A DNA stretch of 44,703 bases from NCBI GenBank assembly GCA_003241875.1, contig QBLU01000027.1, positions 1 to 44,703 of the forward strand, written 5' to 3'. The notes beneath the pieces are model-generated. The model searched no databases, was not told the origin of the DNA, and saw nothing but the letters and a program-made list of their open reading frames with translations. Below, one piece after another: positions 5,115 to 9,592 of the stretch (the stretch's first letter is position 1; each line of letters opens with the position of its first letter). The position numbers were made by a program, and so were the translations under genes. The DNA comes from Alphaproteobacteria bacterium. GTDB lineage: Bacteria > Pseudomonadota > Alphaproteobacteria > Sphingomonadales > Sphingomonadaceae.

Positions 5115-5405
5115 TCAGTCTTCCCCGAATTTGTCGAGCACCAGCCCCGCCAGTTTGGCGACCGCTGCATCGGCCTCGGGCCCCGTCGCCGAAATCTCGA
5201 TCGAATCGCCCAGGCCCGCGGCCAGCATCATCAGCCCCATGATCGACGTGCCGGTAACGCTGGCGCCGTCATGGGTCACCGTCACTTCGGCGTCGAAGCC
5301 GCTGGCCAGGGTGACGAACTTGGCGCTCGCCCGGGCGTGCAGGCCGCGCTTGTTGGTGATCGGCACCGTCACCGGGCCGACCGTGCCCGGGATCGTCTCG
5401 CTCAA
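5115..5405 (-). CDS. ptsH: HPr-family phosphocarrier protein of the regulatory PTS
   Basis: Small phosphocarrier that accepts phosphate from PTS enzyme I on a histidine and passes it to EIIA proteins; in alphaproteobacteria this branch is regulatory rather than a sugar transporter. The active-site stretch NKRGLHARASAKF carries the conserved His, and the second signature SIMGLMMLAAGLG contains the serine that HPr kinase phosphorylates. Length 96 residues fits HPr. The best start is a TTG at 5405 that overlaps the EIIA stop as TTGA; a GTG eleven codons further in would still leave the whole domain. It is the last gene of the minus-strand operon chvI-chvG-hprK/rapZ-EIIA-ptsH and is expected to be coupled to EIIA in translation. 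Enzyme I is not in this window. Confidence 0.92.
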   Translation of the reverse strand: MSETIPGTVGPVTVPITNKRGLHARASAKFVTLASGFDAEVTVTHDGASVTGTSIMGLMMLAAGLGDSIEISATGPEADAAVAKLAGLVLDKFGED

Positions 5406-5803
5406 GCGGCTTCGCCCAGCATCTTCGACGCGACCGCGATATATTTCCGCCCGGCCTCCTGCGCCGCATCGACGGCGGCGGCGACCTTCAGCGTCTTCCT
5501 GACGCTGGCGAGCTTGATCAGCATCGGCAGGTTGACCCCGGCGATCACCTCGATGCCGGGCCCCATCAGCGAAATGGCAAGATTGGAGGGCGTGCCGCCG
5601 AACATGTCGGTCAACATGATGACGCCCTGGCCGGCGTCGCAGCGAGCAATGGCGGCGGCGATGTCGCCGCGACGGATTTCCATGTCGTCATCGGCGGCGA
5701 TGCAGATCGCCTCCACACGCTCCTGCCGTCCGACGACATGCTCCGTCGCGGCCAGGAATTCGGCGGCCAGATGGCCATGTGTGACGAGTACCAGTCCGAT
5801 CAT
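5402..5803 (-). CDS. manX: PTS EIIA component, mannose (ManX-like) family
   Basis: Cytoplasmic EIIA-Man-type protein that receives phosphate from HPr on His9 (LVTHGHLA) . No membrane EIIC/EIID partner is nearby, so it is likely part of the regulatory phosphorelay of alphaproteobacteria, where phosphorylation state reports carbon and nitrogen status and feeds into HPr kinase and the ChvG/ChvI circuit. The conserved core LTDMFGGTPSN, typical of EIIA-Man, is near residues 64-74. Length is 133 residues, the size of a free-standing EIIA domain. Its start overlaps the end of the HprK-RapZ fusion by four bases and its stop overlaps ptsH, which indicates co-translation. Confidence 0.92.
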   Translation of the reverse strand: MIGLVLVTHGHLAAEFLAATEHVVGRQERVEAICIAADDDMEIRRGDIAAAIARCDAGQGVIMLTDMFGGTPSNLAISLMGPGIEVIAGVNLPMLIKLASVRKTLKVAAAVDAAQEAGRKYIAVASKMLGEAA

Positions 5804-7182
5804 GTGGCGCCCCCGTCGCGCGATGTGGGGGCTGCTGTCAATATGGCCGCGTCATTGCCCTGCTTGCCGACGTCGCGGTGGACGAGCAGCGCCGGGTGCC
5901 CGGCCGCGTCCAGCCGCTGCTGCAATTCGCGCGAGACGGCGACGCTGCGATGCCGGCCGCCGGTGCAGCCGATGGCGATGGTGAGGTAGGCCTTGCCCTC
6001 GCGGCCATAGCCCGGGATCAGCGTCGCCAGCAGGTCGGCGATGCAATCGACCGCCGGGCCATAAGCCGGATCGCCGGCGACATAGGCGGCGACGGTCGCG
6101 TCCTCGCCGGTCAGCGGCCGCAATTCCGGCTCCCAGTGCGGGTTGGCGAGGAAGCGCATGTCGAACACCAGGTCGGCGTTGCGCGGCAGGCCATGGGCGA
6201 AACCGAACGACTGGATCGTCACCGTCAGCTGGTTCTGGTCGCTGCGCCCCAGCCGCTCGGCGATGCGGCGGCGCAAGTCCGTTACCGACAGGCCGGTGGT
6301 GTCGATGACGAGGTCGGCCCAGCGCTTCAGCGGCGCAGTCAGCTCGCGTTCCAAGGCGACGCCATCGGCAAAGGGCCGATCGAGCGCCAGCGGGTGGCGG
6401 CGCCGGGTTTCCGAAAAGCGCCGCGCCAGTTCGTCGTCGCTGCAATCGATATAGACGAGCCTGATGTCGACGCCTTCGCCGCGCAGCACGCGCAGCCGGT
6501 CGACCAGCGCCTGGGCATCGAAGGCGCGGGTGCGGGTGTCGATGCCGAAGGCCACCGGCCTTGGCGGCCCGTCGCCGCCCTCTGCCGAGGCCAGCAGCGT
6601 GTCGACGAGGCCGAGCGGCAGATTGTCGACCGCTTCATAATCCATGTCCTCCAGCGCCTTCAGCACCGTCGCCTTGCCGGCACCCGACATGCCGCTGATG
6701 ATCAGCATCGGCGGTGCGGTGCGGGTCGCTTCGAAAGGAGTCTGGTCAGCCACGGGCCTGCTGTTTAGGGCAGCGAGCGCCGCCCGCAAAGCCCGCTCGG
6801 CCTTCAGCGGCGCCGACTCGCCGAATGCATCGAAGGCGAGCAGCGGAATCGCGATGCCATGCCACGCCTGCGAGGCCGCTTCGGGCAGCCGGTCGGGCGC
6901 CGCCGACAGGTCGAGCGCCAGCGCCACCGGGGCGGCGGCAGTGGCCTCGGGCATGATGCCGAGGCCGCGCACCTCCAGCATTCCGGCGAGCACCGGCGGC
7001 GCGCTCGCCACCAGCCGGCCGCCGGCGACACCGAGCACGACCCGGTCATCGGCGACCAGCCGCCAGCCACGATCGATCAGCCGCAGCGCGAGGTCGGACT
7101 TGCCGGCACCCGACGGCCCCAGCAGCAGCACGGCCTCGCCGCCATGCGCCACCGCGGTAGCGTGGATGGTGTCCGGCATCAT
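5800..7182 (-). CDS. hprK-rapZ: HPr kinase/phosphorylase fused in frame to RapZ
   Basis: A single open frame of 460 residues joins two proteins normally made separately. Residues 1-139 are a short alphaproteobacterial HPr kinase, lacking the extra N-terminal domain of Firmicutes HprK: P-loop GPSGAGKSD at about 22-30 and signature LEVRGLGIM near 68-76. It would phosphorylate the serine of HPr. Residues from about 159 are RapZ (RNase E adaptor / nucleotide-binding protein): GMSGAGKATV at 164-173, VYIDCSD, and the C-terminal motif GCTGGRHRS. At the hinge a TAA sits one frame off (6767-6765) and an in-frame GTG (codon 144, 6753-6751) could start RapZ alone. The Walker A residue after Lys170 is Ala171 instead of Ser/Thr. 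The gene overlaps chvG (ATGA) and EIIA by four bases each. Either a real fusion or a one-base frameshift/assembly error is possible. Confidence 0.85.
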   Translation of the reverse strand: MMPDTIHATAVAHGGEAVLLLGPSGAGKSDLALRLIDRGWRLVADDRVVLGVAGGRLVASAPPVLAGMLEVRGLGIMPEATAAAPVALALDLSAAPDRLPEAASQAWHGIAIPLLAFDAFGESAPLKAERALRAALAALNSRPVADQTPFEATRTAPPMLIISGMSGAGKATVLKALEDMDYEAVDNLPLGLVDTLLASAEGGDGPPRPVAFGIDTRTRAFDAQALVDRLRVLRGEGVDIRLVYIDCSDDELARRFSETRRRHPLALDRPFADGVALERELTAPLKRWADLVIDTTGLSVTDLRRRIAERLGRSDQNQLTVTIQSFGFAHGLPRNADLVFDMRFLANPHWEPELRPLTGEDATVAAYVAGDPAYGPAVDCIADLLATLIPGYGREGKAYLTIAIGCTGGRHRSVAVSRELQQRLDAAGHPALLVHRDVGKQGNDAAILTAAPTSRDGGAT

Positions 7183-8789
7183 TCCGCCGGCAGGTCGACG
7201 ACAAAGACCGCGCCGCCCTGGGCCCGGTCGTCGACGCTGATGCTGCCGCCATGGGCCTCGACGATGGCGCTGGCGATCGACAGGCCCAGCCCCGAATGGC
7301 GGCCGAAGTCCTCAGCCTCCGGGCGCTGCGAGTAAAACCGCTTGAAAACATCGGCGCGGTTCTCGGCCGGCACGCCGGGGCCTTCGTCCTCGACCCGTAA
7401 TCGCACCCGGCCGCGGCCGGTTTCCGCCGCCACGACGACCAGGCCGGGGACGGGCGAGAAGGAAATGGCGTTGTCGATCAGGTTGCGCAGCACCTGCGCC
7501 AGCCGCGCCGGGTCGCCCACCACCTTGGCGGCGCCGGCGGCGGGCGGCAGATAGGCGATGTCGAGCCCCGCTGGCAGGCTGGCGGTGCGATAGGCGGCGA
7601 CCAGCCCCTGCGCCAGCGCGCCGGCATCGACGGGTTCGAAGCCGGTGCGCGACAGTTCGGCATCGAGCCGGCTGGCATCGGAAATGTCGGTGATCAGCCG
7701 GTCGATGCGGCCGACATCATCGCGGATCACCGCCAGCAGACGCTGCCGTAGTTCGGGCTGCTCGACCTGGTCGAGCGTGTCGACGGCGCTGCGCAGCGAA
7801 GCGAGCGGGTTCTTCAACTCATGCGCGACATCCGCGGCAAAGGCCTCGGTCGCGTCGATGCGGTTCCTCAGCGCGATCGACATGTCCGACAGCGCGCGGG
7901 CCAGCGCGCCGATCTCGTCGCGGCGGTCGGGCAGGCGCGGCACGATGACTTCGCGGCTGCGCCCCAGCCGCACGCGGTGGGCGGCGATGGCGAGCATGCG
8001 CAGCGGCCGCACGATGGTACGGGCGAGGTACGACGACAGCGTCAGCGTCAGCGCGGTGATACCCAGAAGCAGCCAGAACGACGTCAGCCGCTCGGCGCGC
8101 AGGATCCGCGTCAGGTCGGCGGCGCTGTCGGTGACATGGACGATGGCCCCCGCGGCGACGCCGCCCGTCACCCCCGCGGCGACGCCGCCCGTCACCGGCG
8201 CGGCGGCGCTGATGATGAAAACCCCATCCTCGGCACGGCGCAGGCTCGTCGCTGCCTGGCCGTCGCGCCGTGCCGCCGTCGCCTCGTCCCATTGCGCGAC
8301 GCTGTCCGGTCGGGCCTCGCGATAGGTCGCGATGGGCTTGAAGGCGGCGATATCCTCCAGCGCGCGATCGATGAAGCGCGCCGACCGGCGCCGCCAGCTT
8401 TGCGTCGCCGGGTCGTCGAGCACGAAGCGGGTGGTGCCCGGTTGCCGCCAATTGTCGGCCACCAGCCGGCCATCGGCACCGTACAGCCGCAGCCGCGTGC
8501 CGCGGGCAAAGCTGCGCCGGGCGATGGCATCGGGCAGGATGGCGGCGGGCAGGTCGGCAGCGAAGCCGGCGATGGTCACGGCCTGGCACGCCAGCTCGGT
8601 GCGCCGTTCCTCGATCAGCCGCGACCGCACCGAATCGATATACAGCAGCATCAGCGCCAGCACGATGACGGCAAACACGTTGACCGCAAAGATGCGGGCC
8701 CGCAGCGAGCCGAAGCCGAGGCCGCGGCGCCATTCCTGGACTTCGGGCGGGGTGCGCCCGCTAATCCTCGTTGAAACGATATCCGACAC
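7179..8789 (-). CDS. chvG: Sensor histidine kinase ChvG (ExoS-like)
   Basis: Inner-membrane sensor kinase of the ChvG/ChvI two-component system, which in alphaproteobacteria responds to acid or envelope stress and controls envelope and metabolic genes. Order of parts: a transmembrane segment at about residues 33-52, a periplasmic sensor region to about 240, a second transmembrane segment near 240-260, a HAMP linker, a HisKA domain with the phospho-accepting His in DVAHELKNP, and a HATPase domain with N-box [15 protein letters not shown] and GLGLSIA. The periplasmic part contains a duplicated eight-residue block (VTGGVAAG twice). The likely start is a GTG at 8789, overlapping the chvI stop by 29 bases; I see no in-frame ATG that would keep the first membrane segment. 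It overlaps the HprK-RapZ gene by four bases. Confidence 0.92.
8147..8194. repeat. Perfect 24-bp tandem duplication inside chvG
   Basis: Two identical 24-base units lie head to tail (8147-8170 and 8171-8194). They keep the reading frame and duplicate eight residues (VTGGVAAG) in the periplasmic sensor part of ChvG, just before the second membrane helix. A recent slip or duplication is the simplest explanation. Confidence 0.9.
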
Positions 8790-9495
8790 CGTAGAGCGTC
8801 TCTATCCCCTTGAAGTCGTGATCGACCGCGCGGAATTTCTTGCGCAGCCGCTTGATATGGGAATCGATGGTGCGATCGTCGACATAGACGTCGTCCTGGT
8901 AGGCCGCATCCATCAGCTGGTCGCGCGACTTGACGAATCCGGGTCGGCTGGCGAGCGTTTCGAGGATCATGAACTCGGTGACGGTCAGCGCGACATCGCC
9001 GCGGCGCCCCTCGCCGGCATCCCAGGTGACGCGATGGCGCGCCGGGTCCATCGTCAGCCGGCCGCGCACGATCGGTTCGGCGGCCGGTTCATCGCCCGTC
9101 GCCTCGGGCGGGGCGCGGCGGTTGGCGGCGCGGCGCAGCACGGCGCGGATGCGCTCGATCAGCAGGCGCTGGCTGAACGGCTTGCCGATATAATCGTCGG
9201 CCCCCATCGCGAGGCCCAGCGCCTCGTCGATCTCGGTGTCCTTCGATGTCAGGAAAATCACCGGCACCTCGGATTTTTCCCGCAGCCGGCGCAGCACCTC
9301 CATGCCGTCCATGCGCGGCATCTTGATGTCGAGCACGGCCAGGTCGGGCGGATTGTCGAGCAACGCCTTCAGCGCGGTGTCGCCGTCGGAATACATGCGC
9401 ACGGTAAAGCCCTCCGCCTGCAAGGCGATCGACACCGACGTCAGGATGTTGCGGTCGTCGTCGACCAGCGCGATGGTGGGGGCGTTGCCGGACAT
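8761..9495 (-). CDS. chvI: Response regulator ChvI, OmpR/PhoB family
   Basis: Cytoplasmic DNA-binding response regulator, partner of ChvG. The receiver domain (residues 5-120) shows the acidic pocket DDD at 12-14, the phospho-acceptor Asp56 in LDIKMP, the conserved Thr/Ser and Lys (LTSK, GKPF). The winged-helix output domain occupies about 150-240, ending in [14 protein letters not shown] chose the ATG at 9495 ([14 protein letters not shown]); a TTG upstream at 9531 would add an unlikely Ala/Pro tail. It is first in the chvI-chvG-hprK/rapZ-EIIA-ptsH operon and divergent from pckA, a classic alphaproteobacterial arrangement suggesting joint control of envelope, gluconeogenesis and PTS phosphorylation. 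Confidence 0.93.
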
Positions 9496-9592
9496 TGCCG
9501 GGGTTGTCGCGCCTGGCGCGCGCGATGGCAAGACGTGCGCGGCCGCCGCCGTCGCTCGCGCCGGCTTTCACGCGCGATTAACGCATGGGCTT

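Follow-up and report, generated by a model that had tools for sequence, protein, structure and literature searches.

The window analysed here, a stretch of 44,703 nucleotides from a sphingomonad genome, carries on its minus strand one open reading frame in which an HPr kinase-like (HprK) part runs directly into RapZ. These proteins are usually encoded by two separate genes, as a sequence-only reading of this DNA had stated, and the separate arrangement indeed prevails among the genomes of the family. The locus raises the question of whether the joined frame is real and old, and whether RapZ is made from it in one form or in two. The same reading had proposed either a recent fusion by a one-base change that removed the HprK stop codon or an error in the sequence. 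The features discussed below are collected in Table 1.

Table 1. Positions of genes, protein parts and hinge elements in the window
Feature	Positions	Strand	Remarks
Fused hprK-rapZ gene	5800..7182	-	460 codons, ATG at 7182 to TGA at 5800
HprK part	6763..7182	-	about residues 1-140; P-loop GPSGAGKSD, motif EVRGLGIM
RapZ part	5803..6708	-	residues 159-460; P-loop-like GMSGAGKAT
Low-confidence linker	6724..6759	-	residues 142-153, pLDDT <50
-35-like TTGCGG	6784..6789	-	36 nt before internal GTG
-10-like TAAACA	6762..6767	-	spacer 16; contains off-frame TAA 6767-6765
In-frame GTG, codon 144	6751..6753	-	proposed leaderless RapZ start
TTGACA in rapZ 3' end	5836..5841	-	38 nt before manX ATG
Presumed HPr (ptsH/ptsO)	5115..5405	-	His in GLHARAS, Ser in TSIMG
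Presumed EIIA-Man type protein (manX)	5402..5803	-	start overlaps the fusion's stop codon; gene order as in the available part of PMC13104625
chvG-type histidine kinase	7179..8789	-	stop overlaps the fusion's start codon; named by gene order as in the available part of PMC13104625
chvI-type response regulator	8761..9531	-	named by gene order as in the available part of PMC13104625

One polypeptide with a short HprK and a complete RapZ

Translation of the minus strand gave a 460-residue frame with no internal stop codon, and homologues in relatives were likewise stop-free over both the HprK and the RapZ parts. Pfam Hpr_kinase_C covered only residues 5-77, scoring 63.5 bits where the cut-off is 33.3, and scores for the full-length models were far under their cut-offs (TIGR00679, 70.3 of 240 bits; NF003883, 50.1 of 252 bits). 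The first part was therefore classed as a short HprK-type domain and not as full HprK. The second part matched the NCBIfam RapZ model NF003828 over its whole length (residues 159-438, 330 bits against a cut-off of 244), and both RapZ Pfam domains, PF22740 and PF03668, scored above cut-off. Frame, motifs and domain matches thus agree with the proposed order of a short HprK followed by a complete RapZ. The predicted structure of the fusion had a mean pLDDT of 91.0 and a pTM of 0.49, with residues 454-460 joining the linker in falling below a pLDDT of 50; these values indicate confident models of each part and an uncertain placement of one relative to the other. Using the predicted structure, Foldseek recovered E. 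coli RapZ (5o5o) and, at probability 1.00, the HprK structures 1kkl, 1kkm and 3tqf. A search of the whole genome with the fused protein returned a single match. A short HprK and a full RapZ are encoded here as one real polypeptide.

Both halves retain their key residues. In the HprK part, H7, K28, S29, D45, D46, E70 and R72 were invariant in 25 aligned fused proteins; we take the P-loop, the Asp pair and the E-R of the signature to be the catalytic residues of HprK. In the RapZ part, the phosphate/malonate pocket (H349, C406, T407, G408, H411 and R412) was invariant in 25 fused proteins, the pocket residues H349, T407, G408, H411 and R412 being those named in the available parts of PMC5737377 and PMC9841335. 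Compared with E. coli RapZ (YhbJ/YvcJ; 5o5o), the window protein keeps both domains and the pocket residues H190, T248, G249, H252 and R253 of that protein and differs in carrying an HprK domain in front and in having GKA for GKS/T in the P-loop. A further difference lies at the C-terminus, where the basic tail is absent: the last 19 residues of the window protein contain a single basic residue (one Arg, no Lys), and E. coli RapZ has 8 such residues among its 19 according to the available part of PMC5737377. A search of the genome for GlmZ (RF00083) gave no match, with a positive E. coli control. It appears doubtful from this comparison that the window RapZ serves GlmZ as an adaptor to RNase E. 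The suggestion that the fusion physically ties PTS sensing to the RNase E adaptor family accordingly stands as far as HprK and RapZ share one polypeptide and is doubtful as regards the adaptor role.

The RapZ P-loop varies among relatives. Codon 171 of the window gene (6670-6672, within GAGKAT) encodes Ala, in contrast to the Ser found there in the other fused genes. In the genus g59 and in many alphaproteobacteria the RapZ P-loop reads GAGR. A Lys-to-Arg change in this P-loop was considered as a mark of fusion and rejected: it occurs in all 12 fusions of the families f29 and f55 and in g59, and many relatives without a fusion, Paracoccus among them, have it as well.

Spread and history of the fusion

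All 24 genomes of the genus gave matches, and 22 of them were fused over the hinge, 20 with the whole fused frame and two (G023 and G016) truncated by contig ends. The genomes G009 and G022 had one match each, a rapZ without hprK, which in G009 lies directly 3' of chvG. Across the family (199 genomes in 91 genera), stop-free matches over both parts were found in at least nine genomes of at least four genera (g1, g4, g68 and g59); the six genomes of g59 divide into two fused, three split and one without a match. In the order (397 genomes), no further fused genera were found among the matches listed. In the class (387 genomes, 302 with a match), the matches listed included, besides the window, fused genes in G531 and G640 of family f29 and in G804 and G738 of family f55. 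Nine of the ten f29 genomes were stop-free, and the tenth, G895, contained one TAA within the match yet was open over the hinge. One fragmented genome (G017) has on contig C281 another fused copy (L025) that is incomplete and differs from the first; it may be contamination. Among publications dealing with HprK together with RapZ, covered by titles and the beginnings of abstracts and mostly open-access, we found none on a fusion, and we do not assert that it is new to the literature.

These counts decide the origin proposed for the frame. Nothing besides the off-frame TAA at the hinge speaks for faulty sequencing or assembly, or for a stop codon lost very recently. This explanation is refuted by the relatives that share the unbroken hinge, namely 21 further genomes of the genus and members of three additional genera; we assign it practically no probability. 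A recent one-base fusion fails for the same reason, as the frame is unbroken at the hinge in 22 of the 24 genus genomes and in the three further genera with linkers of many lengths. Comparison of these genomes indicates that the fusion is old and has been kept.

Two RapZ trees were used to trace how often the fusion arose. The first (52 rows) included the split g59 rows and the hprK-less rows. Here one group (85/90, not starred) united the sphingomonad fusions with the three split g59 rows and the two hprK-less rows, so that RapZ without fused HprK, from three g59 and two genus genomes, is nested among fused rows. The least number of changes in this tree was three, which may represent one gain and two losses. 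The second tree (43 rows) left out the split rows, since re-split rows alone could break a fused clade. In this tree, a branch at 70/82 separated the fused f1 rows from all others. A single clade of all fused rows was rejected (p-AU 2.67e-132), as were clades of f1 with f29 (p-AU 2.67e-9) and of f1 with f55 (p-AU 1.27e-46). One origin for f29 and f55 together was not rejected (p-AU 0.379). Given the rejected joint clade, the tie between HprK and RapZ would by parsimony have formed at least twice; a fused ancestor followed by many splits needs more changes and is the less economical alternative.

The hinge DNA and a candidate inner start of RapZ

The off-frame TAA and the in-frame GTG to which the earlier reading had drawn attention lie at the positions it gave. 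The GTG is kept as GTG or ATG in relatives, and this conserved codon may be the start of a RapZ that is also made alone, as a second product separate from the fusion. The TAA itself is probably not a lost HprK stop codon, as had been supposed, since it falls within a conserved TAnnnn box and since G074 and G070, two unfused relatives, have their hprK stop one codon later (cta TAA). A TTG, 16 nt, a TAnnnn box, 8 nt and a start codon make up a sigma-70 promoter layout with a transcript beginning at the start codon.

Spacing in this region is unusually uniform. A TTG precedes an in-frame GTG or ATG by 36 nt in 25 of 28 fused hinges, by 33 nt in two and by 38 nt in one. In 2000 rounds of synonymous resampling, TTG at -36 occurred on average in 2.12 of the 28 hinges and never in more than 8. 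Every other in-frame distance reached at most 4. TTG at -36 together with TA at -14 was observed in 10 of 28 hinges against a resampled maximum of one, and among 14 chosen representatives 13 had TTG at -36 against a resampled maximum of 6. Since the rows share kinship, these figures serve as guides and not as probabilities. The 14 hinges without TA near -14 comprise 13 from one subclade of the genus, some of which have purines resembling a Shine-Dalgarno (SD) sequence, and L008. In a codon-alignment scan, the hinge was the window of highest synonymous constraint for all 27 fused genes (z 9.2) and for subset A (14 sequences, z 6.8); in subset B (12 sequences) it came a close second (z 4.4) to the rapZ 3' end (z 4.6). 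Constraint in subset A was driven by GTA/CTA (12/14), GCT (10/14) and TTG (14/14), set against a background in the scanned genes of 191 TTG among 1655 Leu codons and 21 GTA among 880 Val codons. The comparison thus shows that the hinge bases and the start codon are conserved beyond the need of the protein.

With TAnnnn 14 nt ahead of the start codon in some of the hinges, the layout resembles a sigma-70 promoter of the alphaproteobacterial type from which rapZ would be transcribed as a leaderless mRNA, and we infer both promoter activity and leaderless translation from it. In Novosphingobium, over 80% of such promoters are without T at -7 and keep the TTG (PMC8407463, available part), a style into which the boxes TAGAAG and TAAACA fit. 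Genes of Zymomonas mobilis, as described in the available part of PMC7566282, have promoters inside the upstream coding region, some of them leaderless, as proposed for the window; the window promoter would differ in sitting mid-frame of one fused ORF, with an internal codon as its start. If this reading is true, promoter, start codon and protein linker would share the same bases, a compact case of its kind.

Internal ribosome entry at the GTG or ATG of the operon message would yield RapZ alone without an inner promoter. SD-like purines do precede the start in L010, L014 and L016, and both f55 fusions retain an ATG after CAGAGGGCC or CAGGAGGCC. We nevertheless hold this route to be improbable, because a clear SD sequence is absent from the hinge of the window and from several others and an SD would leave the TTG at -36 unexplained.

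The unfused relatives bear on the age of the box. Of the 36 family loci without a fusion, 14 have a TTG placed 33-39 nt ahead of an in-frame start codon, and 22 lack it. Nine of the 14 also have TAnnnn after a 16-nt spacer (L032, L034, L037, L038, L040, L041, L044, L086 and L089). In L032 and L034 (G074 and G070) the box reads TATAAG and encloses the hprK stop codon TAA, and the box of L086, shifted five codons onward in hprK relative to its usual place, retains the 36 nt. The promoter-like box is hence probably older than the fusion, which may have arisen by a change of the stop codon inside the box with the box itself staying in place. It seems to us an even call that a bifunctional HPr kinase-RapZ sensor evolved at least twice in Alphaproteobacteria, that the sphingomonad leaderless promoter predates the fusion and goes on producing RapZ alone from within the reading frame, and that cells adjust the balance between coupled and free RapZ, as seen in fusion, re-splitting and the loss of hprK alongside a phosphoserine-like Asp in HPr.

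In samples of three genomes (G000, 253 kb including the window; G154, 400 kb; G008, 400 kb; 147, 243 and 277 start candidates, respectively), -35-like sites did not peak 36 nt ahead of gene starts, and SD-like motifs peaked at -10 to -13. Leaderless starts as a genome-wide habit were rejected on this basis. Only a weak genome-wide signal is to be expected, given that 119 of 2,675 pairs of transcription start site and gene are leaderless in Zymomonas (PMC7566282, available part); the absence of a peak still counts as a negative result. In the mostly open-access literature we found no work on leaderless transcription start sites in Sphingomonas. Ten f29 hinges, likewise, revealed no conserved internal start, which indicates that fused genes do not generally require a second product.

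Both of these negative results can be read in favour of a locus that makes the fused protein only, its hinge DNA being kept for another reason such as a transcription-factor site or a message element: the f29 fusions show that the fusion can work alone, and the genome-wide leaderless signal was not found. We regard this explanation as rather unlikely, as it leaves unaccounted for the in-frame GTG or ATG at 36 nt in 25 of 28 hinges, the distance kept in L086 with its box placed elsewhere and the presence of the same box before some separate rapZ genes. We read the locus as known parts in a new arrangement, a fusion that is real, old and kept, for which comparison gives good evidence of an inner start signal and indirect evidence of a second product and of the mechanism.

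In 19 of the 21 genus loci, a TTG also lies 38 nt before the ATG of the gene following the fusion; among all 37 loci the count is likewise 19, every one of them in genus g1. It was rejected as a second instance of the hinge-type promoter, being confined to g1 and having no evident -10-like box.

HPr, the operon and a two-product model

We take the gene at 5402..5803 to be manX and the gene at 5115..5405 to encode HPr, with the Ser of TSIMG as its presumed phosphorylation site. The available part of PMC13104625 gives chvI-chvG-hprK-manX-ptsO as the alphaproteobacterial operon order. The short HprK of this operon resembles that of the window in gene order, P-loop, Asp pair and E-R-G signature, and in an adjoining HPr with the target serine; that of the window differs in being covalently joined to RapZ. 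The whole genome further encodes two proteins with a PEP-utiliser C domain (enzyme I or relatives) and one EIIA of the PTS_EIIA_2 type.

The HPr serine was present in 80 of 81 hprK-bearing loci (duplicates included), the remaining one having no aligned site. In both hprK-less genomes of the genus, G009 and G022 (L161 and L162), it is changed to Asp (TDIME for TSIMG). The Asp was counted at four loci, each of the two genomes being counted twice, and represents one event in a sister pair. L084, likewise without hprK, retains the Ser. The Asp in hprK-less genomes suggests that the HprK half targets the HPr serine and, as Asp resembles phosphoserine, HPr in these cells may permanently mimic the form that HprK would otherwise produce. 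The change thus offers a natural experiment.

Taken with the hinge, these observations incline us towards a two-product locus, comprising a bifunctional HprK-RapZ and a leaderless RapZ from an inner promoter, with metabolite-gated control of HPr-Ser and output to EIIA proteins and ChvG. Translation of the operon message would yield the bifunctional protein, and a conserved promoter within the 3'-terminal stretch of the HprK-coding region (a TTG and, after a 16-nt spacer, TAnnnn or a box of weaker form, followed at 8 nt by GTG or ATG) would produce a leaderless message for RapZ only. The HprK part of the fusion would set the phosphorylation of HPr at serine. The RapZ part would report the supply of cell-wall precursors through its conserved phosphate pocket, metabolite binding being carried over by analogy from E. 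coli, and precursor sensing would thereby be coupled to HPr-Ser phosphorylation. From HPr, the output would reach the EIIA proteins and probably also ChvG/ChvI, the envelope system encoded next to the fusion, either through PTS proteins or directly. In E. coli, glucosamine-6-phosphate is the metabolite sensed by RapZ, and the ligand-free protein stimulates the histidine kinase QseE (PMC7073468, available part); this stimulation and the chvG gene adjoining the fusion led us to propose the ChvG/ChvI link. Here, where the search gave no GlmZ, the repeated covalent tie of RapZ to HprK suggests the HPr-serine switch as its partner.

In the unfused sphingomonad loci L042, L045-L048, L050, L051 and L060-L065, His7 of HprK is replaced by Gln or Asn and HPr reads SILG. 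Fused loci of the family keep the HprK His and the HPr SIMG where both are aligned. In two fused loci, L165 and L166 (G898 and G897), HprK reads ALRG for EVRG, with Ala replacing the signature Glu, and the kinase domain there is possibly inactive yet kept in the fusion.
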